A DNA stretch of 64,000 nt from Rhodopseudomonas pentothenatexigens (lineage in GTDB: Bacteria; Pseudomonadota; Alphaproteobacteria; Rhizobiales; Xanthobacteraceae). Position numbers and translations under genes: made by a program. The notes below the pieces were generated by a model that was given only the letters and a program-made list of their open reading frames with translations, was not told the DNA's origin and ran no database searches. Shown here piece by piece: positions 1,153 through 20,483 of the stretch; positions within the stretch are counted from its first letter, which is position 1, and the number at the start of each line of letters is the position of its first letter. The stretch is taken from NCBI RefSeq assembly GCF_900218015.1, contig NZ_UFQQ01000005.1, positions 62,001 to 126,000 of the forward strand, in the 5' to 3' direction.

Positions 1153-1682
1153 TGTCTGGAGTCCGTCGCTGCCGGGATGGCACTATCGTGCCGTTCGGTC
1201 GTCTGGGCACGTCTGCGAAAGGCTTGATTTGTCGTCGAGAACCGCGTCGCACGGGAAATCGGGACCGGACCGCTGCGCTTGTCGCCGGTGCTGTTAGCAC
1301 ACTCCATTTTGCACCGACAACCCATATTATCCGGGCGGCCCGATCTGTGGATTGTGATTGCGTGCGGCGACGTCTCGGCGGTCCGGCCAACCGTGAAATC
1401 TGCGGGCGCGGACATCGTCGGGAAGAGACTCGCCCGGCCTTGAATCCGCGCCGTTGGTTGATCGGCGCACGGCGGCGGGAGCCGTGCCGACTCGCCCGAT
1501 TTCCCCGATTGTGGCCGCGGTTCCGCTCTCGCGGGAATTTGGGAGGGGGGCGTCTTTGGGGTAGATTTCCGGCCTGCAAATCCGTATCGGAGGGAGGGCG
1601 AAGCCGGGTCCGGGCGGGCGCGGCCGAGCCTGTTGGGCTGCCGTTTCGAACGGCGGCGCCGGCCTTCAAAGTGCCCGAACAG
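1153..1682. other. Divergent intergenic region without a convincing gene
   Basis: About 530 bases separate the leftward methyltransferase gene from the rightward exporter operon. The exporter frame stays open through this stretch, but the translation is arginine-rich and low-complexity, as expected of non-coding GC-rich DNA. Promoters for both directions should lie here. A TATTAT at 1325-1330 resembles a -10 box but has no -35 box at the right distance. I see no RNA gene or clear inverted repeat. Confidence 0.5.
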
Positions 1683-2561
1683 ATGGCTTTCATGACAGCA
1701 AATTCGAACAGGCAGGACGACGACGGCGGCATGCAGTCGGCCGGCGGCACGATCCTGATCCGGCCGCACAGCGGATTGACCCGGCTGGGCATCCCGCAGG
1801 TGTTCGAATACAGCTATCTGCTGAAGTTCTTCGTGCTGCGCAATCTACGTGCACGCTATCGTCCGACGCTTCTCGGCTACGGCTGGATCGTGCTGCGGCC
1901 CGCGCTGCTCTGCCTGGTCTACGCCCTCGTGTTCGGCCATCTACTCGGGGTGCAGAGCCCCGGCGTACCGATGGTGCTGTTCGTGTTCTTCGGCGTGGTC
2001 GTATATCTGTTCTTCGCTTCGGCGCTGACCGAGGTCGCTAACTCGCTGTCCGGCGCCGCCGGCATCATGAGCAAGGTGTACTACCCACGGCTGATCACGC
2101 CGCTTTCGGCGCTGACCACCAATCTGGTCGATCTGGCGTCGTCGATGCTGATCATCTTCGCGATGATGGCGTTCTACGGCGTGATCCCGCCGATCCACGT
2201 GTTCTACTTTCCGTTGTTTCTCGCCGGCTTCGTGCTGGTCACGTTCGGTTTCGGCCTGATCCTCGCGTCGTACTCGGTCGAGCGTCGCGACATCATGATC
2301 GCGCTTCCTGTGGCGATGCGGGTGCTGATCTACGCGATGCCGGCGGTGTATCCGATCAGCCTGGTCTCCGAGCGCCACCAGGTGTTCTACTATCTCAATC
2401 CGCTCGCGGTGTATCTGCAGGGCATGCGGTGGTCGTTGATGAACGATCAGGCGGTGCCGCTGTGGTCGATCGCGCTCGCCGTCGTGGTGACGGTCGCCAG
2501 CGTGCTGTACGGATTGGTCCTGTTCAACCGTGTCGAACGCACCATGGTCGACAGGCTTTAG
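1683..2561 (+). CDS. wzm: Polysaccharide ABC exporter, permease (Wzm-like, ABC-2 type)
   Basis: This inner-membrane protein of about 292 residues starts with a polar tail, then YSYLLKFFVLRNLRARYR and YGWIVLRPALL, the conserved entry of O-antigen/capsule ABC-2 permeases. About six hydrophobic segments follow, and the C-terminus reads FNRVERTMVDRL, the usual end of Wzm proteins. It is followed 16 bases later by its ATPase gene, so the pair exports a lipid-linked glycan across the inner membrane. The upstream reading frame is open but not protein-like. The start at 1683 was chosen as the first plausible ATG; 1692 is an equally good alternative and neither has a strong ribosome-binding site. Confidence 0.9.
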   Translation: MAFMTANSNRQDDDGGMQSAGGTILIRPHSGLTRLGIPQVFEYSYLLKFFVLRNLRARYRPTLLGYGWIVLRPALLCLVYALVFGHLLGVQSPGVPMVLFVFFGVVVYLFFASALTEVANSLSGAAGIMSKVYYPRLITPLSALTTNLVDLASSMLIIFAMMAFYGVIPPIHVFYFPLFLAGFVLVTFGFGLILASYSVERRDIMIALPVAMRVLIYAMPAVYPISLVSERHQVFYYLNPLAVYLQGMRWSLMNDQAVPLWSIALAVVVTVASVLYGLVLFNRVERTMVDRL

Positions 2562-2577
2562 GAAAACGGTTCCCGAG

Positions 2578-3798
2578 ATGTCGAAACCGGTCATCAGCAT
2601 TGAAAAGCTGGGCAAGCAGTACAAGGTCGGCGGCAAGCCGTTCTGGGCTCTGCGCGACATCACGCTGGACGTGAAGCGCGGCGAGGTGCTCGGCATCGTC
2701 GGTCGCAACGGCGCCGGCAAGACGACGCTGCTGCGGATCCTGTCCCGGATCACCGATCCGACCCACGGCAAGGCCGTCATCCGCGGCCGGGTCAGCACGC
2801 TGCTCGAAACCGGCACCGGCTTTCACCCCGACCTCAGCGGCCGCGAAAACATCTACCTCAACGGCGCGATCCTCGGCATGAGGCCGCAGGAGGTGAAGCG
2901 GCGGATGGAGGAGATCGTCGAGTTCTCGGGCGTCGGCAAGTTCATCGACGCGGCGCTGAAGTCGTATTCCTCCGGGATGCGGTCGCGACTGACCTTCGCG
3001 GTCGCGGCCCATCTGGAAACCGAAGTGCTGATGATCGACGAAGTGCTCGCCGTCGGCGACATCGCGTTTCAGGAGAAGTGTCTCGCCAAGATCAACGATC
3101 TGACGCGCGAGGATCATCGCACGGTTCTGTTCGTCAGCCACAGCATGGGCGCCATCCAGTCGCTGTGCTCCAGTGCAATCCTGATCGAGGACGGCACCAT
3201 CGTGGCAAAGGGCGAAACCGAGCACGTGGTGGCGAAGTACAACTCCCTGCTTCTCGGTCCGAAGGGCAGCACGGAGATGACCAATACGGCCGGCAGGCCC
3301 GGGTCCGGCACCGTCCGTCTGACCGGCATGCAACTCGAAGACCTCGACGGCAAACCGATCACCAGCGTCCCTGCCGGTTCGGGCGCGCGCCTGGTGTTCG
3401 ATTATGTGAGCGTGCTCGACCAGGAGGTACGCGACGTCATCGTCACCGTCGTGATCGTCGGCAGCAAGGGCTTTCGGCTGTTCGGCATGCCCAGCGACAT
3501 CATTCGCTCGAAACTGACGCTGAGCGCCAAGTCCGGCCAGTTCGTATGCACCTTGCCGCAGCTGCCGTTGCTGCCGGGGCACTACGACATCGTGGCCAGC
3601 GTGCTGGTGAATCGCGAGCTCGCCGACAAGATCCAGAACATGTGCCATCTGCCCGTTTCACATAATGATTATTACGGCACCGGTCGCATTCAGCAGGGCG
3701 CCATGGGCGACGGCCTGATCGATTTTTCCTGGGACGTGCGCAATGGTGGGCCGGAGCCGAGTTCATCGTCGGTGGCGTCGCGTGAATCCGCGGTCTGA
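2578..3798 (+). CDS. wzt: Polysaccharide ABC exporter, ATPase with Wzt-type C-terminal domain
   Basis: The 406-residue protein has a complete ABC domain: Walker A GRNGAGKTT at residues 42-50, signature YSSGM at about 130-134 and Walker B LMIDE at about 151-155, followed by VLAVGD. Residues from about 250 onward form an extra beta-rich domain like the carbohydrate-binding end of Wzt, which recognises the capped end of the glycan chain. It powers export with the permease encoded just upstream. The start at ATG 2578 is preferred over an earlier in-frame ATG at 2545 because the longer form overlaps the permease gene, and a TAGGAAAA ribosome-binding site precedes 2578. A chain-end-recognising ATPase fits the many methyltransferases nearby, since methyl caps often terminate such chains. 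Confidence 0.92.
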   Translation: MSKPVISIEKLGKQYKVGGKPFWALRDITLDVKRGEVLGIVGRNGAGKTTLLRILSRITDPTHGKAVIRGRVSTLLETGTGFHPDLSGRENIYLNGAILGMRPQEVKRRMEEIVEFSGVGKFIDAALKSYSSGMRSRLTFAVAAHLETEVLMIDEVLAVGDIAFQEKCLAKINDLTREDHRTVLFVSHSMGAIQSLCSSAILIEDGTIVAKGETEHVVAKYNSLLLGPKGSTEMTNTAGRPGSGTVRLTGMQLEDLDGKPITSVPAGSGARLVFDYVSVLDQEVRDVIVTVVIVGSKGFRLFGMPSDIIRSKLTLSAKSGQFVCTLPQLPLLPGHYDIVASVLVNRELADKIQNMCHLPVSHNDYYGTGRIQQGAMGDGLIDFSWDVRNGGPEPSSSSVASRESAV

Positions 3799-3825
3799 GA
3801 CCGCCTCGAAATTGCTGATCGAAGG

Positions 3826-5871
3826 ATGGCGATAGCCGTGAGCACCGATCCGATGCCCGTCGACTCCTGCCCCCGCATTACCGTCGGTTTGCCAGTCTAC
3901 AACGGAGCGCAATATCTGCGGCGGGCGATCGACTCGATCCTCGCTTCGCGATTTACGGACTTCGAACTGATCATCTCTGACAACGGGTCGACCGACGAGA
4001 CACCGCAAATTTGCCGCGAGTATGCGGCGCGGGACAACCGGATCAAGATCATCACACAGCCGAAGAACCGGGGTGCGGTGGCCAATTTCCAAGCAGTGGT
4101 CGCGCCCGCGCGCGGAAAGTATTTCATGTGGGCCGCCGACGACGACGTCTGGCTGCCGGATTTCATGTCCCTCACGTCGGCTGAACTCGATGCTCATCCG
4201 GACGCCGCCGTCGCCATGTGCGCCGTGAAGCGGCGGGAGGGGGCTGAAGGAGATGTGATCGACGTACTCCGGTTTCCGTACGTCAATAAGGAAATGGGCG
4301 GGACCCGGTTTGGAAATTTCCGCCTGATGACCTCGTCCAGCAAGATTTCGCTGTTCGTTTATGGCCTGTTTCGCACCGAACTCATGAAAAAGTCGATCTT
4401 GCTGTTTCCCCATACCCTCGGGGGCGATCGGCAATTCATGTGCCAGTTCACCTTGAGTGGGGATTTTCGTTTTGTCGATTCCGTGCAATATGTCCGATCG
4501 ATCCAGAGTTCCCACGAGTGGTCGTATCGTCGGAATTCGTCGCGACCGTCGGTGCTGCTGAAGCAGATGGCGTCATTCATCTCGCTGATGGTGAGATCGC
4601 CGATCGTCCCGGCTGCGCAGAAGGTCAAACTTCCGCTACTGGCCTATCGCTACGCGGTTTTCATAGGCCTGCACGCGGCCTCGAATCTGCGGAAGCTCAT
4701 TCAAGCCGAGCTCTCGGGAGACGCGGCCGGGCGGCGAAATGGAAAGGCTTTGATGGTGGTCCAGTTGTACGTGCGTCTGAGGCAACTCGTCGCGAAGAAT
4801 TTGAAGCTCGTGATGCTCGGCCTCGTCGGCGGCGGGGCGGCGCTGCTGGGCTGCGCAGTGATTCTGCTGCTGGCCGGAGAGGTCACCGTTGCTCTGCTGC
4901 TCCTGCTCGCAGGCGGCATAGCTGGCCTGGTTGCGGGCGAGATCCTGATCGCCCGGCTGGTGCGCGAGACCTTCAAGCTGGTGAAGTGGCGCGGGACGCA
5001 ACAGTCCGATGCGCGAAAGAGTCTGGACGACATCCGCAACGAGGTCCGGCGTCTCACCGATCTGCAACTGGTCCAGCGCGTGGCCGATGTGGGCGTTGAC
5101 GTCGCGGTCCCGACCAGCAGGTACGCGCAGAACAGGCTCGCGCTCATTCGGAAGGAAGTGACGTTCGCCCATCAGGTGGAGACGAGCCGAATCCGGGAGT
5201 TGTACCTCGGTGAGATCATGCCGGAGGCGCTGAAGGTGCCGGTGCCGCTGGGCGCGATGAACGAATTGACCGGCCATCCGAACAAGGCCGATATGATGAT
5301 GGTCTGCGCGATCGCGGGCGCGATCAAAGCCAAGCGGATCTTCGAGTTCGGCACCCATGTGGGCCGCACGACGTTCCACCTCACCGCCGTGAACGAAGAG
5401 GCCGAGGTCACCACCCTCGACATCGGCGATGCGGCGGTGAACGAATACGCCCCGTATATCGGAAACTTTTTCAAGAACACCGGCAAGGACGGTCGAATTC
5501 GCCAGATCTTCGCCAACTCGTTCGAATTCGACCCGACGCCGTATCGCCAGCAGTTCGACTTCGTCTTCGTCGACGCCGATCACAGCTACGAGGCGGTGAA
5601 GAACGATACGCTCAAGGCCTTCGAGTTGCTCCGACCGGGCGGCGTTGTGATGTGGCACGATTATGCGCCCAAGAGCGCCGGCCTCGTGCAATTCATCAAA
5701 GAATATACGCTCGCTGAGCGGCCACTGTTCCGAATTCGCAACACCTGCCTGCTCTTGCATATCGACGGGGTCGACCCGCTGACCTTCCGGCCTTACCCGA
5801 TGCTGTCGTCGCTCGATCTCGACGCGAAGCAGAAGGATCCTCACAAGATGGATGAGATCTACCACACCTGA
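3826..5871 (+). CDS. Fusion: family 2 glycosyltransferase, membrane hairpin, class I methyltransferase
   Basis: This 681-residue protein joins two enzymes. Residues 17-240 are a GT-A family 2 glycosyltransferase: ITVGLPVYNGAQYL, the SDNGSTDET nucleotide-binding motif, and a DDD metal site at about 105-107. Two strongly hydrophobic helices at about 326-375 follow. Residues 430-670 are a class I methyltransferase: FEFGTHVGRT at about 506-515, VFVDADHSYEAV at about 581-592, then LRPGGVVMWHDY, resembling Methyltransf_24. It follows the exporter genes and probably adds and methylates sugars at the inner membrane. GTG 3838 is a shorter alternative start. The hairpin-like stretch at 5929-5955 lies just downstream. 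Confidence 0.85.
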   Translation: MAIAVSTDPMPVDSCPRITVGLPVYNGAQYLRRAIDSILASRFTDFELIISDNGSTDETPQICREYAARDNRIKIITQPKNRGAVANFQAVVAPARGKYFMWAADDDVWLPDFMSLTSAELDAHPDAAVAMCAVKRREGAEGDVIDVLRFPYVNKEMGGTRFGNFRLMTSSSKISLFVYGLFRTELMKKSILLFPHTLGGDRQFMCQFTLSGDFRFVDSVQYVRSIQSSHEWSYRRNSSRPSVLLKQMASFISLMVRSPIVPAAQKVKLPLLAYRYAVFIGLHAASNLRKLIQAELSGDAAGRRNGKALMVVQLYVRLRQLVAKNLKLVMLGLVGGGAALLGCAVILLLAGEVTVALLLLLAGGIAGLVAGEILIARLVRETFKLVKWRGTQQSDARKSLDDIRNEVRRLTDLQLVQRVADVGVDVAVPTSRYAQNRLALIRKEVTFAHQVETSRIRELYLGEIMPEALKVPVPLGAMNELTGHPNKADMMMVCAIAGAIKAKRIFEFGTHVGRTTFHLTAVNEEAEVTTLDIGDAAVNEYAPYIGNFFKNTGKDGRIRQIFANSFEFDPTPYRQQFDFVFVDADHSYEAVKNDTLKAFELLRPGGVVMWHDYAPKSAGLVQFIKEYTLAERPLFRIRNTCLLLHIDGVDPLTFRPYPMLSSLDLDAKQKDPHKMDEIYHT

Positions 5872-6950: not shown

Positions 6951-8036
6951 TCAGGGCTGTGCACGGCTGCGGGTCTCGATCAGCAGTGCTGTCGCCGCCG
7001 CAGCCAGCTTGTCGCGGCCGCGTGCGTTGAGGTGCTCGGTGGCGAGGTTGTTCTTGAAGAAGAACTCGCGGCCGAGTGCGGCGGAGAAGTCGACGAACCG
7101 ATGTCCGCCGGTGCCGAGCGCGGGCGCCAATGCACGCGCAATCTGGTCGGCGAGAGCGGCGGCGACGTCGGGAAAGCGTCGGCCGTGGACGTCGCGTCCG
7201 GCCTCGACGTTGATCGGTGTGAGGTAACACAGCGCGGTGGCGTTCATCCGGCCGATCAACGTGATCGCATCGCGTAGCGCCAGCAGCTTGGGGTGCGATT
7301 CGTCGAACGTGTAGGCGTAGTGCCACGCGAACAATTCGCGATAGCGCACCTTCTGCTCCGCGGGATTGTCCGTCGGCATCAGCGAGATTGCGCGCAGATC
7401 TCCGTTGCGGGTCAGCGACGACAGTTGCAATCGGACCCGTGTGCGGTCGAACTGATCGAAGAACCCTTCGCCGGCTTCGACGTCGGCGATCGCCGGGATC
7501 GGGCGGCCGGGATCAGCGAGCCAGGCGCGGATCGCGGCGTGTTCCTGCTCGAGTGCCCACAAGGGGCTGCCGTGCCATTGCGGTGAAAACGCGCGCGGGT
7601 TGATCGGGAGCATCACCACGCGGGGGGATGCCGGCAGCCGTGCGAGCACCTCCATCAGGTCGCGGTAGATCGCCGGCTGATACGCCGTGTGCGAGATCGC
7701 CAGGCAGCTTTGCGCAGACCCGACCCGGTCGATCATCATCTGGTGAAGCGTGCGCCGGTCGGTGTCCTCGTTGGCGATCCGCTCGGAGACCGAGTCCCCG
7801 AGCAGCAGCAGTTCGGGAGCCGCGCCGCCGCTGCCATATTGCGCGATCAGCGCCGCCAGCGCCGGAAACGGCTGTCCGGCCGAGCCGGGAAAGATCTGCC
7901 GCAGCGTCTTGGCCTTGCCGGCAGCGATCAGGCGTCGGCGGGTGAAGTAACTGGCGAACATTTTGGCTTCTGTGAAGGACCCGGACGAGGGGAAGAGCTG
8001 CGCCGGCTTTGTATCGGCATCGGGCAGGTTGCTCAA
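6951..8036 (-). CDS. SGNH-hydrolase-like protein of a polysaccharide cluster
   Basis: This protein of 361 residues has the SGNH/GDSL block-I motif LLLLGDSVSERI at about residues 76-87, and a late EHLNARGRDKLA segment whose HLN is in the right place for the C-terminal catalytic histidine region. SGNH proteins in such loci add or remove acetyl groups on sugars. No membrane segment or clear signal peptide is visible, so it may be cytoplasmic; this is unusual for a periplasmic acyl-transfer partner. It lies between the CmcI-like gene and the epimerase gene, all leftward, and ends 177 bases before the former. Confidence 0.6.
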   Translation of the reverse strand: MSNLPDADTKPAQLFPSSGSFTEAKMFASYFTRRRLIAAGKAKTLRQIFPGSAGQPFPALAALIAQYGSGGAAPELLLLGDSVSERIANEDTDRRTLHQMMIDRVGSAQSCLAISHTAYQPAIYRDLMEVLARLPASPRVVMLPINPRAFSPQWHGSPLWALEQEHAAIRAWLADPGRPIPAIADVEAGEGFFDQFDRTRVRLQLSSLTRNGDLRAISLMPTDNPAEQKVRYRELFAWHYAYTFDESHPKLLALRDAITLIGRMNATALCYLTPINVEAGRDVHGRRFPDVAAALADQIARALAPALGTGGHRFVDFSAALGREFFFKNNLATEHLNARGRDKLAAAATALLIETRSRAQP

Positions 8037-8049
8037 GGCAGGCGGGCCG

Positions 8050-8964
8050 TCAGCGGAGCGCGCGGATGGTTCGCGCGAGGCCGGCCTCGCTGTCCTCCGG
8101 CGGTCGCCAGCCGGTTTTCGCCAGGCGGCGGCAGGAAAGCTCGAGCCGGCCGGTCAAGGTCTCCCATCGGTCGCGCTGGCCGATCGCGCCGCTCAACAGC
8201 GACATCATCCGCGGCGCCCCGATCAGCATTGCCGGTCGGCCGATCGCCCGCCGGAAGATACCGATCATCTCGCTGACATTGAGCGGTCGCGGGTCCGCGA
8301 CCAGCGCGGTGAACATGTCGGTATTGCCCAACGTCAGGGCATGGCGCACCGCGGCGGCGACGTTGCGATCGCTGATGATCGAGCGGCGCGCGGTCAGCCC
8401 GTCGAGCGGTAACGGGACCGGCAGCGCCGCTAGTCGGGCGAGGGCCCGCATGTTGGCGCGTACGCCCGCGCCATGGACGACGGGCAGCCGCAGGATCACA
8501 CCGCTGAGCCCGGCCCCGAGAGTCGCCGCTTCGGCGGCGAGCTTGGAACGGCCATAGGCGTTGGTCGGCACCGGGGTGTGGTCTTCTTCGACCAGCCGGT
8601 CGCAACTGCTGCCGACGATGGCGCGCAGCGACGACACATGCACCACGCGAGCAGTGCCGGCCCGCGCGGCCGCCCGCATCAGCCGCTCGGTCGCCGTCGC
8701 ATTGACGGCGAACAGCCGCTGTTCCGAAACGTCCTTGCCCTGGTGGGCGAGACCGGCCACGTGAACCAGACCATCCACCCCCTCGAGCGGTTGCATCCAG
8801 TCGATCGGATCCTCCAGATCGCCGATCTGCACCCGTTCGACGCCCGGGATTGCCGTTTGATCGGGACGCCGCAGCGTCAGCCGAACCTGATGCCCCGCCG
8901 CGAGCAGCTCGTTCACCACCACCCGACCGACAAAACCCGAGCCGCCTGTGACCAGAACCTTCAT
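8050..8964 (-). CDS. NAD(P)-dependent nucleotide-sugar epimerase/reductase (extended SDR)
   Basis: The protein starts MKVLVTGGSGFVGRVVVNELL, the Rossmann GxxGxxG of extended short-chain dehydrogenases, followed by GLVHVAGLAHQGK and the catalytic YGRSK with an upstream VSSLRA serine. This pattern is close to WbpV/GalE-like 4-epimerases or 4-reductases acting on UDP-N-acetyl sugars. A longer form from 9000 exists, but the 12 extra residues (MHSRRPRAIFRA) precede the conserved start, so 8964 is preferred. It heads the leftward set with the SGNH-like gene 13 bases downstream. It probably makes a UDP-sugar donor for the glycan. Confidence 0.83.
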   Translation of the reverse strand: MKVLVTGGSGFVGRVVVNELLAAGHQVRLTLRRPDQTAIPGVERVQIGDLEDPIDWMQPLEGVDGLVHVAGLAHQGKDVSEQRLFAVNATATERLMRAAARAGTARVVHVSSLRAIVGSSCDRLVEEDHTPVPTNAYGRSKLAAEAATLGAGLSGVILRLPVVHGAGVRANMRALARLAALPVPLPLDGLTARRSIISDRNVAAAVRHALTLGNTDMFTALVADPRPLNVSEMIGIFRRAIGRPAMLIGAPRMMSLLSGAIGQRDRWETLTGRLELSCRRLAKTGWRPPEDSEAGLARTIRALR

Positions 8965-11810: not shown

Positions 11811-12353
11811 CTACTCGTCCTCGTAGGCCGGCGGCGTGCCCCGGATGTCGCCGATCAGATCACAGATCTCGCGCACCGCGCCTTTGCCGCCCGGGCGGGT
11901 CGTGATGTAGCAGGCGAGGTCGCGGACGTGATCGTGCGCGTCGGCGACCACGATCGGCAGGCCGGCGTGCTTCAGGCAGGGCTTGTCGTTGATATCGTTG
12001 CCGACATAGCCGGTCTCGGCCAGCGACACGCCGAACCGTGCGGCCACACGGCGCAGCGCCTCGAGCTTTCGTTCGACGCCGTGCAGGCATTCCATCTGCA
12101 GCTTCTTGGCCCGCGCCGCGACGACGCCGTTGACCTCGGTCGAAATGATGAACGGCGTGATGCCGGCGCGCTCCAACCGTCTTATTCCGATACCATCAAA
12201 CCGGCTGCAGCATACCGCCTCCCGGCCGTCCTCGAACACGTAGACCGAGTTGTCGGTGAAAACCCCGTCGAAATCGAACACCATCAGGCGAAGCTTGCGA
12301 ATGCGGTCGGCCAGATCGTCGTCGCTCAGCAGCATCCAGTCCCTCGTCCGCAA
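11811..12353 (-). CDS. KdsC-like HAD phosphatase (ulosonic-acid 8/9-phosphate phosphatase type)
   Basis: The 180-residue protein is a C0-type HAD phosphatase: DFDGVFTDN with the nucleophile and general acid Asp pair at residues 27 and 29, FIISTEVNGVVAARAKKL as the second loop with the KdsC-like lysine region, and GYVGNDINDKPCL for metal binding. KdsC and sialate-9-phosphate phosphatases share this pattern and have no cap domain, matching the short length. It lies back to back with the cytidylyltransferase gene 155 bases away. This suggests it removes phosphate from the ulosonic acid before CMP activation. Confidence 0.85.
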   Translation of the reverse strand: MRTRDWMLLSDDDLADRIRKLRLMVFDFDGVFTDNSVYVFEDGREAVCCSRFDGIGIRRLERAGITPFIISTEVNGVVAARAKKLQMECLHGVERKLEALRRVAARFGVSLAETGYVGNDINDKPCLKHAGLPIVVADAHDHVRDLACYITTRPGGKGAVREICDLIGDIRGTPPAYEDE

Positions 12354-12508
12354 GCCCGCCCCTTCGGTCGGATCGACCTCTCGTATCGCCCGGCCCCAGC
12401 CGCCGCAAGCGCGCCGTGCCGCGGGTCGCGAACTGGCTTGACCACCCGGCCCAAGTTGGGTAGCCCCAGCCGTCCCGCTGGCAGGGATGCGGCAAGGGTT
12501 CCACTTCG

Positions 12509-13288
12509 ATGTCCAGGGCTCCCTCCATAGTTGCGCTGATTCCTGCGCGCTCGGGATCGAAGCGGCTCGCTCACAAGAACGTCCGGCTGCTCGGCGGCCA
12601 TCCGGCGCTGGCCTATACGATCTGCGCGGCGCGCGCCTCCCAGGTGTTCGACGCCGTCGTCGTCTCCACCGATTCCGAGGTCTATGCGGACATCGCCCGT
12701 CACTACGGCGCCGAGGTCCCTTTCCTGCGTCCCGACGAAGCGTCGGGTGATCGATCGCCCGACATCGACTGGGTCGACCTCACCCTGCAGCGGCTGGACG
12801 CGGCGGGCCGCCGTTACGACGCCTTCTCGTTGCTGCGGCCGACCTCGCCGTTCCGCAAGCCCGAGACCATCGCGCGGGCATGGAAGCAATTCGTTGCGGC
12901 GGATGGGGTGGACTCGCTGCGGGCCGTCGAGCCGGTGGAGCAGCATCCCGGCAAGATGTGGGTCGTGCGCGGTCAGCGCATGACGCCGCTGCTGCCGCTG
13001 TCGCCCGCGGAAGCGCCGTGGCACAGCCAGCAGATGGCGGCACTGCCGCTGGTGCACGTTCAGAACGCCAGCCTTGAAATCGCCTGGACCCGCGTGGTCC
13101 GCGACAGCCGCACCATCGCCGGCACCGTGCTGATGCCTTTCCTGACCGAGGGCGACGAAGGCATCGACATCAATCGTCACAAGGACTGGCTCTGGGCCGA
13201 GCATCTGATCGCGTCCGGCGAGGCCAGACTTCCGGAGATCGACCGTCCGGCCTATCCGCGCGAGCGGCTGCCGGCCGGGGTGTTCTGA
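12509..13288 (+). CDS. CMP-ulosonic-acid synthetase (acylneuraminate cytidylyltransferase family)
   Basis: The start VALIPARSGSKRLAHKNVRLLG matches the CTP-binding loop IPARxGSK-x-KN of NeuA, LegF and PseF enzymes. It is followed by VVVSTDSEVYADIAR and LLRPTSPFRKPETI. Its length, 259 residues, is close to bacterial CMP-sialate synthetases (about 225-235) with a slight C-terminal extension. The reaction would be CTP plus a free ulosonic acid giving the CMP-sugar donor and pyrophosphate. It is the first rightward gene of the cassette, with the transketolase-like gene 37 bases after. Confidence 0.85.
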   Translation: MSRAPSIVALIPARSGSKRLAHKNVRLLGGHPALAYTICAARASQVFDAVVVSTDSEVYADIARHYGAEVPFLRPDEASGDRSPDIDWVDLTLQRLDAAGRRYDAFSLLRPTSPFRKPETIARAWKQFVAADGVDSLRAVEPVEQHPGKMWVVRGQRMTPLLPLSPAEAPWHSQQMAALPLVHVQNASLEIAWTRVVRDSRTIAGTVLMPFLTEGDEGIDINRHKDWLWAEHLIASGEARLPEIDRPAYPRERLPAGVF

Positions 13289-13325
13289 ACCTTGGATTTC
13301 ATTCTTTCATTTGCAGGAGCGCGTC

Positions 13326-15263
13326 TTGGGTGACCTGATCGGCGACGTTGTCGAATCCGAATTGTACTACGTGCCGGCCAGAGAGTTCGACCGGGTCCGC
13401 CAGCTCAACGCGCCGCGTCCGAAGCTGGTGTCGCTCTACGCCGACATGGCCCGGCTGAACGCGCTGTACATGATCGCGCGCGCCGGGTCGGGACATATCG
13501 GTTCGTCATTCTCGTCGCTCGATATCCTGTCGCATCTGTATCTGACCGAAATGAATCGCGACGCCGGCGACATCTTCTTTTCCTCCAAGGGCCACGACGC
13601 GCCCGCGCTGTACGCGGTGCTGATCGCCCAGGGTGTGCTGCCGGAGCAGAAGCTGCACGGGCTGCGCCGGCTCGGCGGACTGCCCGGCCATCCCGATATC
13701 GGCACGCCGGGCCTCGTCACCAACACCGGCTCGCTCGGCATGGGGATTTCGAAGGCGAAGGGGATGCTGTTCGCCAACCGCGTCACCGGAAAGGGCGGGC
13801 GGGTGTTCGTGCTCACCGGCGACGGTGAATTGCAGGAAGGCCAGATCTGGGAATCGCTGGTGTCGGCCGCCAACCACCGCGTCGGCAACCTCACGGTGAT
13901 CGTCGACCACAACAAGTTCCAGTCGGACTTCTCGGTCGAGCGGACCTCGAGCCTGGGCGACCTCGACGCCAAGTTTCGCGCGTTCGGCTGGCACGTCGCG
14001 CGGATCGACGGCCACGACACCGAGCTGCTGGCCGAGACCTTCAAGGCGCTGGAGAAGATCACCGACCAGCCCAAGGTGGTGATCGCCGACACCGTCAAGG
14101 GCAAGGGCGTGTCCTTCATGGAAGGCACCTCGATCGACTCCGACGTCGAGATGTTCCGGTTTCACTCGGGTGCGCCGAAGGCCGACGAATATCTGCGCGC
14201 GGTCGAAGAGATCGAAGCGCGGATTTCCAGTCAGCTCGCCGGGCTGCACGCGACCGCGGTCGAAGTCGTTCGCGTCGACAAGCCGGTGGTGGCGCCGGCG
14301 CCGGCCGGACAGGTCAAGCTGTTCCCGGCCTATACCGAGGCGCTGCTCGTCGAAGCCGAGAAGCGCCCCGAGCTGGTCGCGCTCGATGCCGACCTCGCGC
14401 TCGACATGGGGCTGCTGCCGTTCGGCGAGAAATTCCCCGACCGCTATCTCGAATGCGGCATCGCCGAGCAGGACATGGTGAGTCAAGCCGGCGGCATGGC
14501 GCTGCGCGGCCTGCTGCCGGTGGTGCATTCGTTCTCGTGCTTCCTGTCGACGCGTCCGAACGAGCAGATCTACAACAACGCCACCGAAGACAGCCGCATC
14601 GTCTATGTCGGCGGCCTGTCCGGCGTGCTGCCGGCGGGGCCGGGGCATTCGCACCAGAGCGTGCGCGAGATTTCCGCGCTCGGCGGCATTCCAAATCTGG
14701 TGATGGTCGAACCGTGCTGTCCCGAGGAAGTGGCGCCGCTGCTGCGCTGGTGCCTCGACTATCAGGGGCCGAGCTTCCTGCGGATGATCTCGATCCCCTA
14801 CGTCACCAGCGCCAAGCTGCCGGCGGACTACGTGCCACAATCCGGCCGCGGCGTGACCCTGCGCAGCGGCGGCGATGCGACCATCGTCACGTCGGGACTG
14901 CTGATGACGGCGGAAGCGTTGCGGGCTGCCGAGCTGCTGGCGCAGCGCGGCATCGCGGCGGGCGTCGTCGCGCATCCGTGGCTCAACCGCGCCGATCCGG
15001 AATTCGTGCTGGATTTGGCAGCGCGTGCGCCGGTGCTGATCACGCTCGACAATCACTTCAGGATCGGCGGGCAGGGCCAGCATCTGATCGCCGCGCTGGC
15101 CGGCTCCAATCCGCCGCGGATGCCGCGATGCCTGTCGCTCGGCCTCGAACAATGTCCGCCGTCGGGCCGCAACGATGAGGTGCTCGACGTGGTCGGACTC
15201 GACGCCGACCGGATCGCCCAGCGCATCGCCGAGTTCCTGGGGTCCGGCACCCGCAAATTATGA
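13326..15263 (+). CDS. Transketolase-like thiamine-diphosphate enzyme
   Basis: One 645-residue chain holds both halves of a transketolase: the diphosphate-binding domain with GHIGSSFSSLDIL, SSKGHDAPALYAVL and the GDGELQEGQIWE...DHNKFQ ThDP motif (about 165-200), then the pyrimidine-binding domain with LECGIAEQDMVSQAGGMAL carrying the catalytic Glu, and a C-terminal domain. The frame is open from TTG 13311, but AGGAG at 13315-13319 places the start at TTG 13326, six bases beyond. Sequence style is nearer the split, sugar-cluster transketolases than the pentose-phosphate enzyme. It sits between CMP-transferase and NeuB genes, implying it builds or remodels the sugar substrate. Confidence 0.85.
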   Translation: MGDLIGDVVESELYYVPAREFDRVRQLNAPRPKLVSLYADMARLNALYMIARAGSGHIGSSFSSLDILSHLYLTEMNRDAGDIFFSSKGHDAPALYAVLIAQGVLPEQKLHGLRRLGGLPGHPDIGTPGLVTNTGSLGMGISKAKGMLFANRVTGKGGRVFVLTGDGELQEGQIWESLVSAANHRVGNLTVIVDHNKFQSDFSVERTSSLGDLDAKFRAFGWHVARIDGHDTELLAETFKALEKITDQPKVVIADTVKGKGVSFMEGTSIDSDVEMFRFHSGAPKADEYLRAVEEIEARISSQLAGLHATAVEVVRVDKPVVAPAPAGQVKLFPAYTEALLVEAEKRPELVALDADLALDMGLLPFGEKFPDRYLECGIAEQDMVSQAGGMALRGLLPVVHSFSCFLSTRPNEQIYNNATEDSRIVYVGGLSGVLPAGPGHSHQSVREISALGGIPNLVMVEPCCPEEVAPLLRWCLDYQGPSFLRMISIPYVTSAKLPADYVPQSGRGVTLRSGGDATIVTSGLLMTAEALRAAELLAQRGIAAGVVAHPWLNRADPEFVLDLAARAPVLITLDNHFRIGGQGQHLIAALAGSNPPRMPRCLSLGLEQCPPSGRNDEVLDVVGLDADRIAQRIAEFLGSGTRKL

Positions 15264-16942
15264 TCGCGCCGCTTCGGTCCCTGGTACGGCGCGCTCCGGC
15301 GCTCAGATGGCTCCGGCTTCTGCGCCTGAACCGGTTTGCGCGAAAACGCGCCCACCAGGACTGGACCGGGCTGATCGAGCCGGACGGCGAGCGCTGGCGC
15401 GCGGCGCTGGCAGCGGCCGATAACGGGCCGCGCGTCGTCATCGCCACCAACTCCGGCGGCCATTTCGGCCTCGCGGCGGTCGACCGGCTGATCGCGGTCG
15501 CGCTCACCTTGCGCGGCGCCCGGGCGTCGGTCGCGTTGTGCGACGGCGTGCTGCCGGCCTGCCTGATGTGCGAATACAACATCCAGCCGACCGCGGCGCT
15601 GATCGCGCGTGGCCCCGACCGGCGGATCTGCAGTTTCTGCTATCCGCCCGCCGCCAGCGCGGTGGAGCGGCTGTGCCTGCCGCTGGAGCGACTGGGCTCG
15701 GAGATCACGCCCGCCGACATCGAGGCGGCGGAGCAGTTCGCCGCCTCCGTGCCGTTCGAGCGGATCGGCAGCGCAGTCTGGCACGACGTCGCGGTCGGAC
15801 AACACGCGCTGGCCGGCGCGCTGCGCTATTTCGCCTGCGGCACGCTGGATCGCGAACCGCTCGGCGAGCCGGTGGCGCGGCGCTATCTGGCCGCGACGGT
15901 GGTGACGGCGATCGCCTATCAGCGGATGTTCGAGCGGCTGCGGCCCGAGGTCGTGGTGGTCCATCACGGCATCTACGCGCCGCAAGGCATCGTCGTCGAA
16001 GTCGCCCGCCAGCGCCGGATCAGGGTGGTGACGTGGAATCCGGCCTATCGCCGGCATTGCTTCATCTTCAGTCACGACGAGACTTATCATCATTCGCTGA
16101 TGACCGAGCCCATCGGCCGATGGGCCGATCGGCCGCTGACCGCGGCGGAGAGGGCGCAGATCAGCGACTACCTCGCCAGCCGACGCGAGGCGCGCAACGA
16201 CTGGATCAGCTTCCACAAGCCGCCCGACGTCGCCGTCGCCGAGCGGCTGGCGGCGGCCGGCTTCGATGCGTCGAAGCCGATCATCGTCGCTTACACCAAC
16301 GTGTTCTGGGACGCGCAGCTGCACTATCCGCAGAACGCGTTCCGCAGTCAGATCGATTGGCTGACGCAGACGATCGGATACTTCGCGACGCGGCCCGATC
16401 TGCAACTGGTGATCCGCGTGCATCCTGCGGAAGTCAGCGGCGTTCCGACCTCGCGCCAGTTCGCGATCGACGAAATCGCCAAGGTGTTTCCCGAACTGCC
16501 CGCCAACGTGCTGCTGATCGCGCCGTCCGACGCGCTGTCGTCCTACGGGCTCGCGGATGTCGCCGACACGGTGCTGATCTACGCCACCAAGATGGGGGTC
16601 GAACTGACCGCGACCGGCATTCCGGTGGTGGTGGCCGGCGAGGCCTGGGTGCGGAACAAGGGATTCACCGCGGACGTCCGGTCGCCTGAACACTATCGCG
16701 AACTGCTCGATGCGTTGCCGGCCCGCAACAGGATGGCGCCCGAAGCCCGCGAGCGGGCGCTGGCCTACGCGTATCACTTCTTCTTCCGGCGGATGATTCC
16801 GCTCACGATGGTGGATTCGGTCGCCAACAGCCGGCTGTTTTCGGTGTCCGCAGGCAGCGTCGAGGAATTGGCCGGCGGCCGGAATCACGGCCTCGATGTG
16901 GTCTGCCAGGGCATCCTCGCAGGAGCGCCATTCGAGGCTTGA
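15260..16942 (+). CDS. Capsule polysaccharide biosynthesis protein, KpsS-like
   Basis: This 560-residue protein begins at an ATGA overlap with the transketolase-like gene. VVIATNSGGHFGLAAVDRLIAVAL opens a GT-B-like fold, and the later VTWNPAYRRHCFIFSHDETYHH, LVIRVHPAEV and SSYGLADVADTVLIYATKMGVELTATGIPVVVAG resemble the Capsule_synth family that includes the Kdo-transferring KpsS/KpsC proteins. It may add the CMP-activated ulosonic acid made by the neighbouring enzymes. Many cysteines cluster early (CDGVLPACLMC and ICSFCYPP), which is unusual for this family and could be a metal site. Confidence 0.7.
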   Translation: MIAPLRSLVRRAPALRWLRLLRLNRFARKRAHQDWTGLIEPDGERWRAALAAADNGPRVVIATNSGGHFGLAAVDRLIAVALTLRGARASVALCDGVLPACLMCEYNIQPTAALIARGPDRRICSFCYPPAASAVERLCLPLERLGSEITPADIEAAEQFAASVPFERIGSAVWHDVAVGQHALAGALRYFACGTLDREPLGEPVARRYLAATVVTAIAYQRMFERLRPEVVVVHHGIYAPQGIVVEVARQRRIRVVTWNPAYRRHCFIFSHDETYHHSLMTEPIGRWADRPLTAAERAQISDYLASRREARNDWISFHKPPDVAVAERLAAAGFDASKPIIVAYTNVFWDAQLHYPQNAFRSQIDWLTQTIGYFATRPDLQLVIRVHPAEVSGVPTSRQFAIDEIAKVFPELPANVLLIAPSDALSSYGLADVADTVLIYATKMGVELTATGIPVVVAGEAWVRNKGFTADVRSPEHYRELLDALPARNRMAPEARERALAYAYHFFFRRMIPLTMVDSVANSRLFSVSAGSVEELAGGRNHGLDVVCQGILAGAPFEA

Positions 16943-17017
16943 TCGCGCCTATCCAACTTGTGTATCCACACCCCGAGCCATCCAGACCATCCCGTGTTCT
17001 CGCGGAAGGACCAGCAA

Positions 17018-18091
17018 ATGCCTCGTATGTTCACGTTTGGTACCAAGGTCGTCACAGACGATAGTCCATCATTCGTGATCGCGGAGGTCGGGCACAATCA
17101 TCAAGGCGACATGGAGAAGTGCAAGGCGATCTTCAAGGCTGCGAAGGAAGCCGGCGCCGATGCGGTCAAGATCCAGAAACGCGACAACCGCGCGCTGTTT
17201 ACCGCCGAGATGTACGACTCCCACTACGACAGTGAGAACGCCTACGCGCCGACCTACGGCACGCATCGCGAGCATCTGGAGTTCAACCGCGAGCAGTATC
17301 TGGAGCTGAAAGAGTACTGCAAGCAGCTCGACATCATCTTCTTCTCGACCGCCTTCGACGAGCCGTCGGCCGATCTACTCGAGAGCATCGACATGCCCGG
17401 CTACAAGATCGCCTCCGGAGATCTGGTCAACACGCCGTTGCTGAAGAAGGTGGCTTCGTTCGGCAAGCCGATCATCGTATCCACCGGCGGCGGCACGCTG
17501 GCCGACGCCCGGATCGCCTACGAGACGATCATGCCGATCAACCGCAATCTCTGCATCATGCAGTGCACCTCGGGCTATCCGCCGCCGCACGAAGAACTCA
17601 ACCTGCGGGTGATCGAGACCTTCCGGAAGGAGTTCCCCGACATCGTGATCGGGTTCTCGTCGCACGACTCGGGTGTGGCGATGCCGCTGATCGGCTATAT
17701 GCTCGGGGCGCGCGTGTTCGAAAAGCACTTCACGCTGAACCGGACCTGGAAGGGCACCGATCAGGCATTCTCCCTCGAACCCGCCGGCCTTCGCCGCGTC
17801 GTGCGCGATCTCGAACGCAGCCGCGTCGCCCTGGGAGACGGCGTCAAGACTCCGTACGCGTCCGAGACCTCGCCGCTCAACAAGATGGTCAAGCGCGTGG
17901 TCGCGTCGCGGGCGCTGCCGAAGGGCCACGTCCTGACGCTCGACGACGTCGCGTTCCGGATCCCGACCGGCGCGCGCATCACGCCGCAGACGCTGCGTCC
18001 GTTCGAGGCCGAGCAGCTCGTCGGCCACGCGCTGACGCGCGATCTCGCGTTCGAAGAACCGATCACCCGCGCGGACGTCGGAATCAACTGA
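17018..18091 (+). CDS. NeuB-type PEP-dependent ulosonic acid synthase with SAF domain
   Basis: A TIM-barrel NeuB domain spans residues 10-275, with FVIAEVGHNHQGDMEKCKAI, GADAVKIQ, KIASGDLVNTPLLKK, QCTSGYPPPHEELNL and GFSSHDSG plus EKHFTL, which hold the two metal-binding His residues of sialate synthase. A C-terminal SAF/antifreeze-like domain (VVASRALPKGHVLTLDDVAFR) follows. It condenses phosphoenolpyruvate with an aldose. The start ATG 17018 has GGAAGGA seven bases before it; the longer frame from 16958 is not conserved. The family motif GPDH reads GTDQ here. The sugar accepted is unknown, since no amino-sugar genes accompany it. Confidence 0.88.
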   Translation: MPRMFTFGTKVVTDDSPSFVIAEVGHNHQGDMEKCKAIFKAAKEAGADAVKIQKRDNRALFTAEMYDSHYDSENAYAPTYGTHREHLEFNREQYLELKEYCKQLDIIFFSTAFDEPSADLLESIDMPGYKIASGDLVNTPLLKKVASFGKPIIVSTGGGTLADARIAYETIMPINRNLCIMQCTSGYPPPHEELNLRVIETFRKEFPDIVIGFSSHDSGVAMPLIGYMLGARVFEKHFTLNRTWKGTDQAFSLEPAGLRRVVRDLERSRVALGDGVKTPYASETSPLNKMVKRVVASRALPKGHVLTLDDVAFRIPTGARITPQTLRPFEAEQLVGHALTRDLAFEEPITRADVGIN

Positions 18092-18093
18092 TC

Positions 18094-18909
18094 ATGGCCG
18101 ATGTATTCGATCTCTCCGGTCGCGTCGTCGTCGTCACCGGGGGATTGGGCCAGCTCGGTCGCCGCTTCAGCGCCGATCTGATCGGCCGCGGCGCGCGCGT
18201 GGCGATTGTCGATCAGTTTCCGTGCCGCGACCGGACGCTGGGCGGGCTGGTGCCGGCCGATCACGGCGACCGGCTGATGACGTTCGTTGCCGATATCACC
18301 AGCCGCAGCGATCTCGAGGCGGCGCTCCGTGCGATCGAGACGCAATGGGGCGCGCCGTACGGGCTCGTCAACAACGCCGCGCTGGACAGCCCGCCGGATG
18401 CGCCTGCATCCGAGAACGGCCCGTTCGAGGACTATCCCGAGGATTCTTTCGATCGCATCGTCGCGGTGAATCTCAAGGGCACCTTCCTGTGCTGCCAGGT
18501 GTTCGGCGGAGCGATGGCGCGTGCCGGCCGCGGATCGATCGTCAATGTCGGATCGATCTACGGCGTCGTCGCGCCCGATCAGAATCTGTACGAGTACCGC
18601 CGCCAGGACGGCGGGACTTTCTTCAAACCGGTCGCCTATTCGGCGGCGAAGTCTGGCGTCTACAATCTGACGCGCTACCTCGCCGCGTATTGGGGCAAGC
18701 AGCAGGTGCGGGTGAACACCGTCACCTTCGCGGGCGTCTTCAATAACCAGGATCCGCGCTTCCTCGAGAAGTATCTGCCGAAGGTGCCGCTCGGGCGGAT
18801 GGCGGAGCCCGCCGACTACAGCGGCGCGATGGTCTATCTGCTGTCGGATGCGTCGCGCTACATGACCGGGTCCAACATGGTGATCGACGGCGGCTTTACG
18901 TCGATCTAG
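18094..18909 (+). CDS. Short-chain dehydrogenase/reductase
   Basis: Residues 11-22 hold the Rossmann motif VVVVTGGLGQLG, followed by LVNNAAL, NVGSIYG with the catalytic serine, and YSAAK with the catalytic Tyr/Lys at about residue 182. DGGF at the end is typical of classical SDRs. The start is the ATG two bases after the NeuB stop, so the two are cotranslated. SDRs near neuB in legionaminic acid loci (PtmA type) are similar in style. It probably oxidises or reduces an intermediate of the acidic sugar pathway. The stop codon lies within the inverted repeat at 18906-18949. Confidence 0.85.
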   Translation: MADVFDLSGRVVVVTGGLGQLGRRFSADLIGRGARVAIVDQFPCRDRTLGGLVPADHGDRLMTFVADITSRSDLEAALRAIETQWGAPYGLVNNAALDSPPDAPASENGPFEDYPEDSFDRIVAVNLKGTFLCCQVFGGAMARAGRGSIVNVGSIYGVVAPDQNLYEYRRQDGGTFFKPVAYSAAKSGVYNLTRYLAAYWGKQQVRVNTVTFAGVFNNQDPRFLEKYLPKVPLGRMAEPADYSGAMVYLLSDASRYMTGSNMVIDGGFTSI

Positions 18910-18949
18910 AGCTCTTCCGGTTCTGATGGAATTAGAACCGGACCTCTAG
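18906..18949. repeat. Nested inverted repeat at the SDR gene end
   Basis: Outer arms CTAGAG (18906-18911) and CTCTAG (18944-18949) enclose inner arms CCGGTTCT (18917-18924) and AGAACCGG (18934-18941). The hairpin includes the SDR stop codon and precedes a T-rich tract, so it may end or attenuate transcription between the SDR and dehydrogenase genes. Confidence 0.6.
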
Positions 18950-18955
18950 TTTCTT

Positions 18956-19010
18956 TGTTTGACGCGTTTTCTAGACGCGATCCGGTTTCCACTTCGCTCG
19001 AAAACGTTCG
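18956..19010. repeat. Conserved-looking intergenic block
   Basis: The stretch GACGCGTTTTC...CCACTTCGCTCGAAAACG has 7-base inverted arms CGTTTTC (18965-18971) and GAAAACG (19000-19006). From memory, similar blocks recur between genes in Bradyrhizobium and Rhodopseudomonas genomes; this cannot be confirmed here. It lies just upstream of the aldehyde dehydrogenase start. Confidence 0.45.
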
Positions 19011-19028
19011 AGGGGCGACAGACCGATC

Positions 19029-20483
19029 ATGATCCTGCATCCAAGCCTCGTGCCGAACCAGATCGGCCACGACATTCCGGCTACCGCCGACACGATCGCC
19101 GTGTTCGATCCGCATACGGCGCGGGAGATCGCGAGGATTCCGCGATCCGGCAAGGCGGAGATCGATGCCGCTGTCGCCGCGGCGCGGGCGGCGCAGCCGG
19201 ACTGGGACGCGACGCCCGGGGTTCGGCGCGGCGAGATCCTGCATCACATCGCCAATCTGATCGAGGCGCGCTCGGACGAGTTGTCGCGGATCGTCGCCGC
19301 CGAAGCCGGCAAGCGGCTCGCGGATGCGCGCGGCGAAACCGCCGCGGCGGTGCAATGCGCCCGGTTCTTCGCCGGCGAGGGGCAGCGGATGTTCGGCCGG
19401 ACCATGCCGAGCGGCATGGCCGGACGCTGGGCGATGACGATCCGCCGGCCATGCGGAGTCGCGGGCCTGATCATCGCTGCCAATACCCCCGCGCCGAATT
19501 TCGCCTGGAAGGTGTTCCCGGCGCTGATCTGCGGCAACGGCGTCGTGCTGAAAACCGCGGAGGACACCCCAATCTCGTCGTGGCTGCTGGGCCGGCTGTG
19601 CGAAGAGGCCGGGTTGCCGAAGGGCGTCCTCAATATCGTCCACGGGCTCGGTGCCGAGGCCGGGCAGGCGTTGGTCGAGCATCCCGACGTCGATATGATC
19701 AGCTTCACCGGCTCCACCCGGGTCGGCCGTCTCATCGCCGAGACCGCCGGCCGCCAGCTCAAGAAGGTGTCGCTGGAACTCGGCGGCAAGAACGCGCTGG
19801 TGGTCTGCGACGACGCCGATCTCGATCTCGCGGTGAAGTGGACGCTGCTCGCGGCGTTCTCGAATGCCGGGCAGCGCTGCGCCGCGGGCAGCCGGATCGT
19901 GGTGTTCGACAAGGTGTATGACGCCTTCGTCGACAGGCTGCTGACCGCCACGCGGGCGCTGAAGCTCGGCACTGCGGATGATTGCGATCTCGGTCCGGTC
20001 ATCAACCAGCGCCAACTCGACAACATGGTCGGCGCGATCGAGCGCGCGGTGGCGGGCGGCGCGGCGCTGCTGTGCGGCGGCGCGCCCGCGACCAGCGCCG
20101 ATCTACCGGGATATTATCTGCAGCCCACCCTCATGACCGACCCCGACCCGGATTCGGAGCTCGCGCGCACCGAATTGTTCGGGCCGATCACGGCCCTGTA
20201 CAGGGTGCCGGATTTCGACCACGCGGTGTCGTTGGTCAACCGTTCGCCCTACGGATTGACCGCCTCCGTCCACACCCGCGACATCGACCGCGCGCTCACC
20301 TTCGCGCGCAAGGCGCATGTCGGCGTCGCCGTCGTCAATGGCGGCACGCACGGATCGGAAGCGCATATGCCGTTCGGCGGCCTCAACGCCTCGGGCAACG
20401 GCACGCGCGAACCGGGCACCGAAGCGCTCGACGTCTACAGTGAGCTGCGTGTGGTCTATCTCAACAGCCAGCCGCCGCACTGA
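19029..20483 (+). CDS. Aldehyde dehydrogenase (NAD(P)-dependent)
   Basis: This is a full-length ALDH of 484 residues, with ISFTGSTRVGR as the cofactor loop, LELGGKN with general-base Glu at about 250, and NAGQRCAAG with catalytic Cys at about 284. ELFGPI and MPFGGLNASGNGTREPG complete the family pattern. Most sugar-cluster pathways lack an ALDH. Here it follows the SDR gene by 119 bases, containing two repeats, and could oxidise an aldehyde carbon of the acidic sugar or of a side product. It may have its own expression because of the hairpin in between. Confidence 0.85.
   Translation: MILHPSLVPNQIGHDIPATADTIAVFDPHTAREIARIPRSGKAEIDAAVAAARAAQPDWDATPGVRRGEILHHIANLIEARSDELSRIVAAEAGKRLADARGETAAAVQCARFFAGEGQRMFGRTMPSGMAGRWAMTIRRPCGVAGLIIAANTPAPNFAWKVFPALICGNGVVLKTAEDTPISSWLLGRLCEEAGLPKGVLNIVHGLGAEAGQALVEHPDVDMISFTGSTRVGRLIAETAGRQLKKVSLELGGKNALVVCDDADLDLAVKWTLLAAFSNAGQRCAAGSRIVVFDKVYDAFVDRLLTATRALKLGTADDCDLGPVINQRQLDNMVGAIERAVAGGAALLCGGAPATSADLPGYYLQPTLMTDPDPDSELARTELFGPITALYRVPDFDHAVSLVNRSPYGLTASVHTRDIDRALTFARKAHVGVAVVNGGTHGSEAHMPFGGLNASGNGTREPGTEALDVYSELRVVYLNSQPPH

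Follow-up and report, generated by a model that had tools for sequence, protein, structure and literature searches.

A conserved cassette with NeuB-type, transketolase and aldehyde dehydrogenase genes may direct synthesis of a nitrogen-free ulosonic acid in Rhodopseudomonas pentothenatexigens

Gene content of the locus

The window analysed here, a stretch of 64,000 nucleotides from Rhodopseudomonas pentothenatexigens (contig NZ_UFQQ01000005.1, positions 62,001 to 126,000), contains a group of genes that combines a NeuB-type condensing enzyme, a CMP-ulosonate synthetase (NeuA) and a KdsC-type phosphatase with a short-chain dehydrogenase/reductase (SDR), a transketolase (TKT) and an aldehyde dehydrogenase (ALDH). 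These six genes form a cassette that is conserved across phyla, and they might yield a CMP-activated ulosonic acid derivative without an amino group. The source genome (5.38 Mb in 69 contigs) encodes a single NeuB copy. Codon-usage gene calling and family scans found every gene named in the original prediction present and open at the coordinates of Table 1, including a TKT with both halves and a KpsS-like gene whose start at 15260 overlaps the TKT stop. That the genes lie almost in one run is true for six co-directed genes; the phosphatase gene lies on the other strand and diverges from them, and the SDR and ALDH genes are some 120 bases apart.

Table 1. Genes of the cassette region, with positions in the window and family matches.
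Feature	Position	Strand	Family evidence
KdsC-type HAD phosphatase	11811-12353	-	TIGR01670, 108.4 bits (cut-off 106.95); nearest solved chain 3mmz
CMP-ulosonate synthetase, NeuA/PseF-like	12509-13288	+	PF02348; PseF 122 vs 205.7 bits; under all equivalog cut-offs
Cassette-specific TKT	13311-15263	+	N, pyrimidine and C domains on a single chain
KpsS-like protein, candidate ulosonyl transferase	15260-16942	+	PF05159, 28.6 bits (cut-off 20)
NeuB-type condensing enzyme, separate clade	17027-18091 (longest open reading frame from 16958)	+	PF03102, 256 bits; SAF domain
PtmA/PRK09186-type SDR, proposed tail alcohol oxidase	18094-18909	+	NF006619, 167 bits; PtmA, 103 bits; both below cut-off
ALDH	19029-20483	+	PF00171, 527 bits; NF042993, 409 vs 770 bits

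The NeuB start is uncertain: codon usage favours 17027 or 17075, and the longest open reading frame spans 16958-18091. The window NeuB scores below both the NeuB and the PseI equivalog cut-offs. The top-scoring models for the ALDH are alpha-ketoglutaric semialdehyde dehydrogenases, far under their cut-off. As far as its family goes, the KpsS-like protein could plausibly be an ulosonyl transferase; no solved structure matched it credibly in a profile search.

Conservation of the cassette

A NeuB scan of named genomes was evaluated for the best 80 of 566 candidate loci. Among these 80, NeuBs with at least 48% identity were found at 29 loci, mostly metagenome assemblies, whose titles name Alpha- and Gammaproteobacteria, Acidobacteria, Chloroflexota, Planctomycetia, Gemmatimonadales, Myxococcota, Desulfobacterales, a Gloeocapsa, actinobacteria and others. 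Among 150 relatives, the query matches six places with at least 57% identity; these lie in five genomes, one of them that of the window. By score, the following match shows 36% identity, and shorter, lower-scoring matches reach up to 43%.

A table of 39 genomes was compiled, 37 of them picked because their NeuB belongs to this clade (all of the above 29 loci plus 8 genomes found in other searches). The other two, Ciceribacter (L082) and Parcubacteria (L113), were picked for their TKT and have a more distant NeuB. The SDR is present in 36 of the 39 genomes, TKT in 33, NeuA in 28 (in three of them only 36 to 43% identical), ALDH in 26, a recognised phosphatase in 21 and the KpsS-like protein in 13. 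Without the two TKT-picked genomes, the counts are 34, 31, 27 and 25 of 37 for SDR, TKT, NeuA and ALDH. Contig ends cut the TKT of L075 and the ALDH of L171 to fragments. Cultured strains with the cassette include Ciceribacter sichuanensis (L082) and Geminicoccus flavidas (L053). The recognised phosphatase is KdsC or, in some clusters, another HAD phosphatase, and two of the 21 are the queries themselves. The locus maps show the same neighbours, in the fullest cases in the order NeuB-KdsC-SDR-ALDH-NeuA-TKT, which is found in L057, L082 and, with one extra gene, L062. In L057 (9983-11731), NeuB and the KdsC-type phosphatase are fused to a single protein of 583 residues, which supports a phosphorylated product for this NeuB. 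The search for orthologous clusters suggested by the original prediction hence found the six genes conserved together across phyla, and this rules out a chance neighbourhood.

The gene content is nearly nested, with ALDH genomes lying within the TKT set, TKT genomes within the SDR set and these within the NeuB set. All 33 TKT genomes have the SDR in the fetched DNA (in G068 at another locus), and 24 of the 26 ALDH genomes have TKT; in the other two (G145 and Desulfobacterales L061) the fetched DNA reaches a contig end. The clearest case of an SDR without TKT is L052/G371 (91% complete), and NeuB with NeuA but without SDR was seen in three small assemblies. TKT was searched in 18 genomes that lack it at the fetched locus. 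Of the 14 that belong to the NeuB clade, nine have a TKT of at least 46% identity (one in two pieces) and one has only a 42% half; L052, L060, L073 and L074 have none at E 1e-40. In G145 none was found at E 1e-60. Such absences are weakened by assembly gaps.

Gene sets of this kind could also belong to a pathway for a plain or otherwise modified neutral ulosonic acid, e.g. 3-deoxy-D-glycero-D-galacto-non-2-ulosonic acid (Kdn) bearing a keto group or epimerised at one centre, in which TKT and ALDH clear or recycle a by-product. The NeuB-SDR-NeuA set of L052, which lacks both enzymes, would suit this explanation, as would the nine TKT genomes without ALDH. The frequencies of TKT and ALDH among the 39 genomes are, however, high for accessories, and we regard this possibility as decidedly unlikely.

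Genomes that were not selected by hand also link TKT to NeuB. Of 385 genomes drawn once from the class, 5 have NeuB and 4 have TKT, all 4 shared (hypergeometric p 5.5e-9). When sampling started from TKT, 398 genomes of the phylum gave 5 positives at E 1e-170, and 4 of these 5 (the window's own genome, G195, G1182 and G1214) contain NeuB and SDR in the same genome, the NeuB of G1214 being only 39% like that of the window. The 18 kb read from G1170, which belongs to the genus of G1182, contain TKT, NeuA, ALDH and the KpsS-like gene, and no NeuB or SDR within those 18 kb. In Rhizobiaceae, searched at E 1e-110 with scoring of three candidates in each genome, TKT was found in 2 of 346 genomes including the query's own, and NeuB and SDR adjoin it in both. 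For the five enzymes, pairwise distances are correlated with one another (r 0.17 to 0.67, 16 to 29 genomes); for nine of ten enzyme pairs no more than 2 of 2000 permutations matched the correlation, whereas 75 did for TKT-NeuA. This means that the module has been inherited together, with some mixing. A phage origin was rejected: NeuB has just three matches in phage records, all below 37% identity. When plasmids were searched more widely for NeuB and TKT, one record fell in the clade, the Streptomyces plasmid L009.

Several variants were observed. In the actinobacterial loci L009 (11575-22336), L076, L078 and L172, NeuB, SDR and TKT are accompanied by an RraA-like aldolase gene, and NeuA and ALDH are missing. 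Glyoxalase-family, FMN dehydrogenase, P450 and two aminotransferase genes lie nearby in L009, a class IV aminotransferase gene in L076 and L078, and very large proteins, peptide-synthetase-like by eye, are encoded in L009 and L078. This set possibly provides an unusual building block for a peptide natural product. Eleven Chloroflexi loci (L087, L089, L090, L091, L094, L097, L099, L101, L102, L104 and L108) contain SDR, NeuA, KdsC and NeuB, with no TKT in the fetched DNA; their NeuB and SDR are about 42% like those of the window, and the NeuB match stops short of the SAF domain. L056 encodes a protein (7775-8887) with cytidylyltransferase-like and methyltransferase domains, as scanned in this locus only, and homologues lie near the cassette in L051, L063, L067, L083 and L192. 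Proteins of 443 to 674 residues are encoded in or beside the cassette in L062 (12388-13716), L168 (3209-5230) and L194 (at 13020); those of L062 and L168 have no Pfam match.

The condensing enzyme and the missing amino-sugar genes

In a quick tree, the cassette NeuBs fall into a single group (38 rows, SH-aLRT 91). That of Ciceribacter joins on a long branch with a support of 86, and the Parcubacterial NeuB falls outside. In NmeNANAS, the NeuB of Neisseria meningitidis, Arg314 binds the N-acetyl group of N-acetylmannosamine (ManNAc); R314A abolishes and R314K keeps activity, according to the excerpted text of PMC6795526. An equivalent of Arg314 is absent from all 38 distinct cassette NeuBs, of which 31 have Ser at this position and the rest Ile, Val, Cys or Thr; the L060 NeuB, missed in gene calling, was left out of these rows. 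Among 77 outgroup NeuBs, 19 are gapped at this position and Arg is found in 46 of the remaining 58. The arginine is present in one neuC-adjoining NeuB and one PseI, and the divergent cassette-linked NeuBs of L082, L202 and L113 likewise lack it.

A PF02350 epimerase (NeuC/LegG type) has no match in the whole genome, while the same search was positive in 11 of 14 control genomes. The 10 kb directly upstream of the window (L018) contain genes for a GDP-mannose 4,6-dehydratase, CDP-glucose enzymes, RmlC, a DegT aminotransferase (252 bits against a PseC cut-off of 423.5) and a NeuD-type acetyltransferase. Among the seven L018 proteins scanned there is no NeuC, PseB or LegB equivalog, and no PseB, PseC or PseG equivalog scores above cut-off among these seven and ten window proteins; PseB and PseG were not searched genome-wide. 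The lack of amino-sugar genes noted earlier for the cluster holds for the window genes scanned. Just outside the window, among the L018 proteins scanned, it holds for the NeuC, PseB and LegB equivalogs, but an aminotransferase and an acetyltransferase gene are found there.

These two genes would favour an ordinary pathway to sialic, legionaminic or pseudaminic acid, in which the amino-sugar genes are placed outside the cluster and TKT and ALDH are neighbours without a functional link, and the limited scope of the PseB and PseG searches leaves some room for it. They sit, however, with GDP-mannose and CDP-glucose dehydratase genes and suggest other sugars. Furthermore, TKT, SDR and ALDH are conserved with NeuB across phyla. 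With the arginine for N-acetyl binding missing from NeuB and no NeuC-type epimerase in the genome, the usual amino-sugar routes are unlikely for the cassette, and the ordinary route with unrelated neighbours is highly improbable. An ulosonic acid route without standard amino-sugar genes, as originally predicted, is supported.

The transketolase

In the cassette TKTs, the residues that bind thiamine diphosphate and the donor head (H26, H66, H100, D155, E160, N185, H261, E411 and H473 in Escherichia coli TktA numbering) are kept in all 32 rows, 31 of them distinct; in a second alignment H261 is out of register. Four other residues are replaced in all 31 distinct sequences: S385 by D, H461 by L or Y, D469 by P and R520 by S, I or T. 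The two canonical TKTs of this genome retain all four, and S385, H461 and R520 are also present in two split TKTs. The stretch around R358 aligns poorly and is hydrophobic by eye. As the catalytic residues are kept and the phosphate-site residues replaced, the cassette TKT should be active, yet lack the usual grip on sugar phosphates. With two canonical transketolases encoded elsewhere in the genome, a housekeeping role was ruled out.

The original prediction had TKT make the aldose used by NeuB. The SDR could prepare a ketose which TKT then cuts, and the unusual aldose so formed would be condensed with phosphoenolpyruvate (PEP) by NeuB, after which ALDH would make the end acid. An analogous arrangement is known from the 3-amino-5-hydroxybenzoic acid (AHBA) route, where a transketolase feeds aminoDAHP synthase, and both the tight co-occurrence of TKT with the NeuB clade and a NeuB site that differs from the ManNAc enzymes and might accept an odd aldose are in keeping with this order. 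Against it speak the replaced phosphate site in all 31 distinct TKTs, although a phosphatase is often in the set, and the presence of NeuB and NeuA without TKT in L052/G371 and perhaps in the small assemblies L060, L073 and L074. These two observations fit better with a TKT step after NeuB and phosphatase, so that TKT as the maker of the NeuB substrate is doubtful and this order of steps unlikely. The related proposal of a phosphorylated neutral sugar as starting point fared better in one part: a phosphorylated intermediate is probable, with a phosphatase in 21 of 39 genomes.

Proposed pathway

From the observed gene set, its conservation, the altered residues of NeuB and TKT and the near-nested content, we infer the reactions, substrates, TKT direction and carbon number of the following pathway, to which a probability of about 0.45 is assigned as a route to a CMP-activated ulosonic acid derivative without an amino group. 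NeuB would condense PEP with a neutral aldose phosphate of central metabolism, the simplest candidates being mannose-6-phosphate and glucose-6-phosphate, and the KdsC-type phosphatase would strip the tail phosphate. The SDR may then oxidise the alcohol adjoining the terminal CH2OH (C8 of a hexose-derived nonulosonate). The resulting tail, HOCH2-CO-CHOH-, would carry the HOCH2-CO- head typical of a transketolase donor, from which TKT could take off the terminal two carbons to leave the C7 aldehyde of a 2-keto acid. ALDH would turn this aldehyde into a second carboxylate, giving a 3-deoxy-ulosaric acid, perhaps the C7 compound 3-deoxy-hept-2-ulosaric acid. Finally, NeuA would form the CMP-sugar, whose residue the KpsS-like protein may transfer. 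By hand reasoning, manno or gluco precursors would present the next two centres in the D-threo configuration, as in fructose, and the product would be L-arabino if the start is mannose-6-phosphate. This specific outcome, a pathway widespread in bacteria with a dedicated TKT trimming the SDR-oxidised nitrogen-free nonulosonic acid and an ALDH oxidising the stump to CMP-activated 3-deoxy-hept-2-ulosaric acid, is put forward slightly more tentatively than the pathway as set out above.

The linear order NeuB, SDR, TKT, ALDH predicts the near-nested gene content, and loss of the TKT phosphate site would be explained by a phosphatase acting first. The best ALDH models act on a 2-keto-acid aldehyde, which is weakly in line with the last oxidation. 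The original proposal that an aldehyde is oxidised to an acid is supported as possible.

Several observations weigh against this pathway. The pathway needs a C2 acceptor; that of SqwGH is glyceraldehyde 3-phosphate, and weak binding of phosphorylated acceptors is to be expected of a TKT that has lost its phosphate site. ALDH is missing from the fetched DNA of nine of the 33 TKT genomes (G068, G018, SI074, G464, four actinobacteria and Parcubacteria). Six of the nine were searched further: five have none at E 1e-120, and the Parcubacterium has an ALDH of 43% identity elsewhere in its genome. L192, too, has TKT without ALDH. Other ends of the route must therefore exist. Conversely, G145 has ALDH and no detectable TKT in an 83% complete assembly. 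The phosphatase is recognised in little more than half of the genomes, and there are a few NeuB cases without TKT, three in small assemblies. In addition, the 3-deoxy-lyxo-heptulosaric acid of Rhizobiaceae lipopolysaccharide (LPS) is left unexplained by a TKT so rare in this family.

As transketolase reactions are reversible, TKT might instead add two carbons from a donor such as hydroxypyruvate to an ulosonate aldehyde, with the SDR reducing the new ketone to yield a higher-carbon ulosonic acid. The lost phosphate site would fit such a non-phosphorylated donor. An elongating TKT would, however, use up the aldehyde that ALDH also needs, whereas nearly all ALDH genomes have TKT and the two others are cut at contig ends. 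Moreover, no gene would supply the starting aldehyde. Elongation is considered very unlikely.

Relation to known systems

Kdn is made from mannose-6-phosphate and PEP via a Kdn-9-phosphate phosphatase and activated as CMP-Kdn. The proposed trimming pathway shares with this route a NeuB-type synthase, a KdsC-type phosphatase, a CMP-transferase and independence from amino sugars; it differs by the additional SDR, TKT and ALDH, and the cassette phosphatase reaches 91 bits against a Kdn-9-phosphate phosphatase cut-off of 180. In another species, a neuAB pair is behind both Kdn and N-acetylneuraminic acid (Neu5Ac), as stated in the excerpt of PMC9000132, which mentions no transketolase, although no search aimed at that word was made. 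The Neu5Ac, legionaminic and pseudaminic acid routes likewise use a NeuB-family synthase and a CMP-transferase, but the host lacks a PF02350 epimerase, the cassette NeuB lacks the Arg314 equivalent and the scanned proteins include no PseB or LegB equivalog.

Oxidation of an ulosonate tail is known from the 8-oxidation of 3-deoxy-D-manno-oct-2-ulosonic acid (Kdo) to Kdo8N. The Kdo pathway resembles the cassette in its KdsC-type phosphatase and, with Kdo8N, in the idea of tail oxidation, whereas the cassette has NeuB in place of KdsA and, in addition, TKT and ALDH. A heptulosaric acid, 3-deoxy-lyxo-heptulosaric acid (Dha), reportedly occurs in the LPS of Rhizobiaceae. It belongs to the 3-deoxy-hept-2-ulosaric acids, the product class predicted for the cassette, but by hand reasoning a start from mannose-6-phosphate would give another stereoisomer. 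With TKT in only 2 of 346 genomes of this family, the query's own among them, a direct link to Dha is not supported.

A precedent for the proposed TKT and ALDH steps is offered by the sulfo-TK pathway. As described in PMC11659671, SqwGH takes C2 from a sulfoketose without a terminal phosphate and passes it to glyceraldehyde 3-phosphate, and one variant oxidises the last aldehyde. Removal of C2 from such a ketose followed by aldehyde oxidation would be common to both systems. Unlike the cassette, the sulfo-TK pathway is catabolic, involves neither NeuB nor a CMP-sugar and has a CoA-acylating oxidation. In the open-access library searched, no link between a transketolase and a NeuB-type pathway was found; subscription literature was mostly outside the search. 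The excerpts of three papers that had seemed relevant, PMC11766843, PMC12342839 and PMC11547076, proved unrelated.

Surrounding polysaccharide region

The cassette appears to lie in a locus for a surface polysaccharide that includes an ABC exporter: a TagH/Wzt-like ATPase with scores below cut-off is encoded at 2578-3798, and family scans found glycosyltransferases and methyltransferases in the region. At 3826-5871, a C-terminal methyltransferase domain is fused to a GT2 glycosyltransferase. Several operons in the adjoining stretch 21873-52195 resemble branched-chain amino acid type ABC transporters when their translations are judged by eye. In L018, positions 1393-5558 contain genes for a CDP-glucose cytidylyltransferase, a dehydratase, RmlC and one more protein without NCBIfam match, which suggest a second unusual sugar of the CDP-linked deoxy type at the same locus.

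Implications

Dicarboxylic ulosonic sugars are residues of rhamnogalacturonan II, algal scales and some LPS; to our knowledge, no biosynthetic genes have been described for them. If the proposed pathway is true, the six-gene cassette would provide such genes as well as a marker to find these sugars in surface glycans, and it would be the first genetic route to a heptulosaric sugar with the first transketolase acting on an ulosonic acid. The positions altered in the cassette TKT correspond to those that enzyme engineers changed in E. coli transketolase, and the cassette enzyme would be a natural transketolase adapted to non-phosphorylated substrates. The cassette joins annotations that now read merely sialic acid synthase and transketolase.

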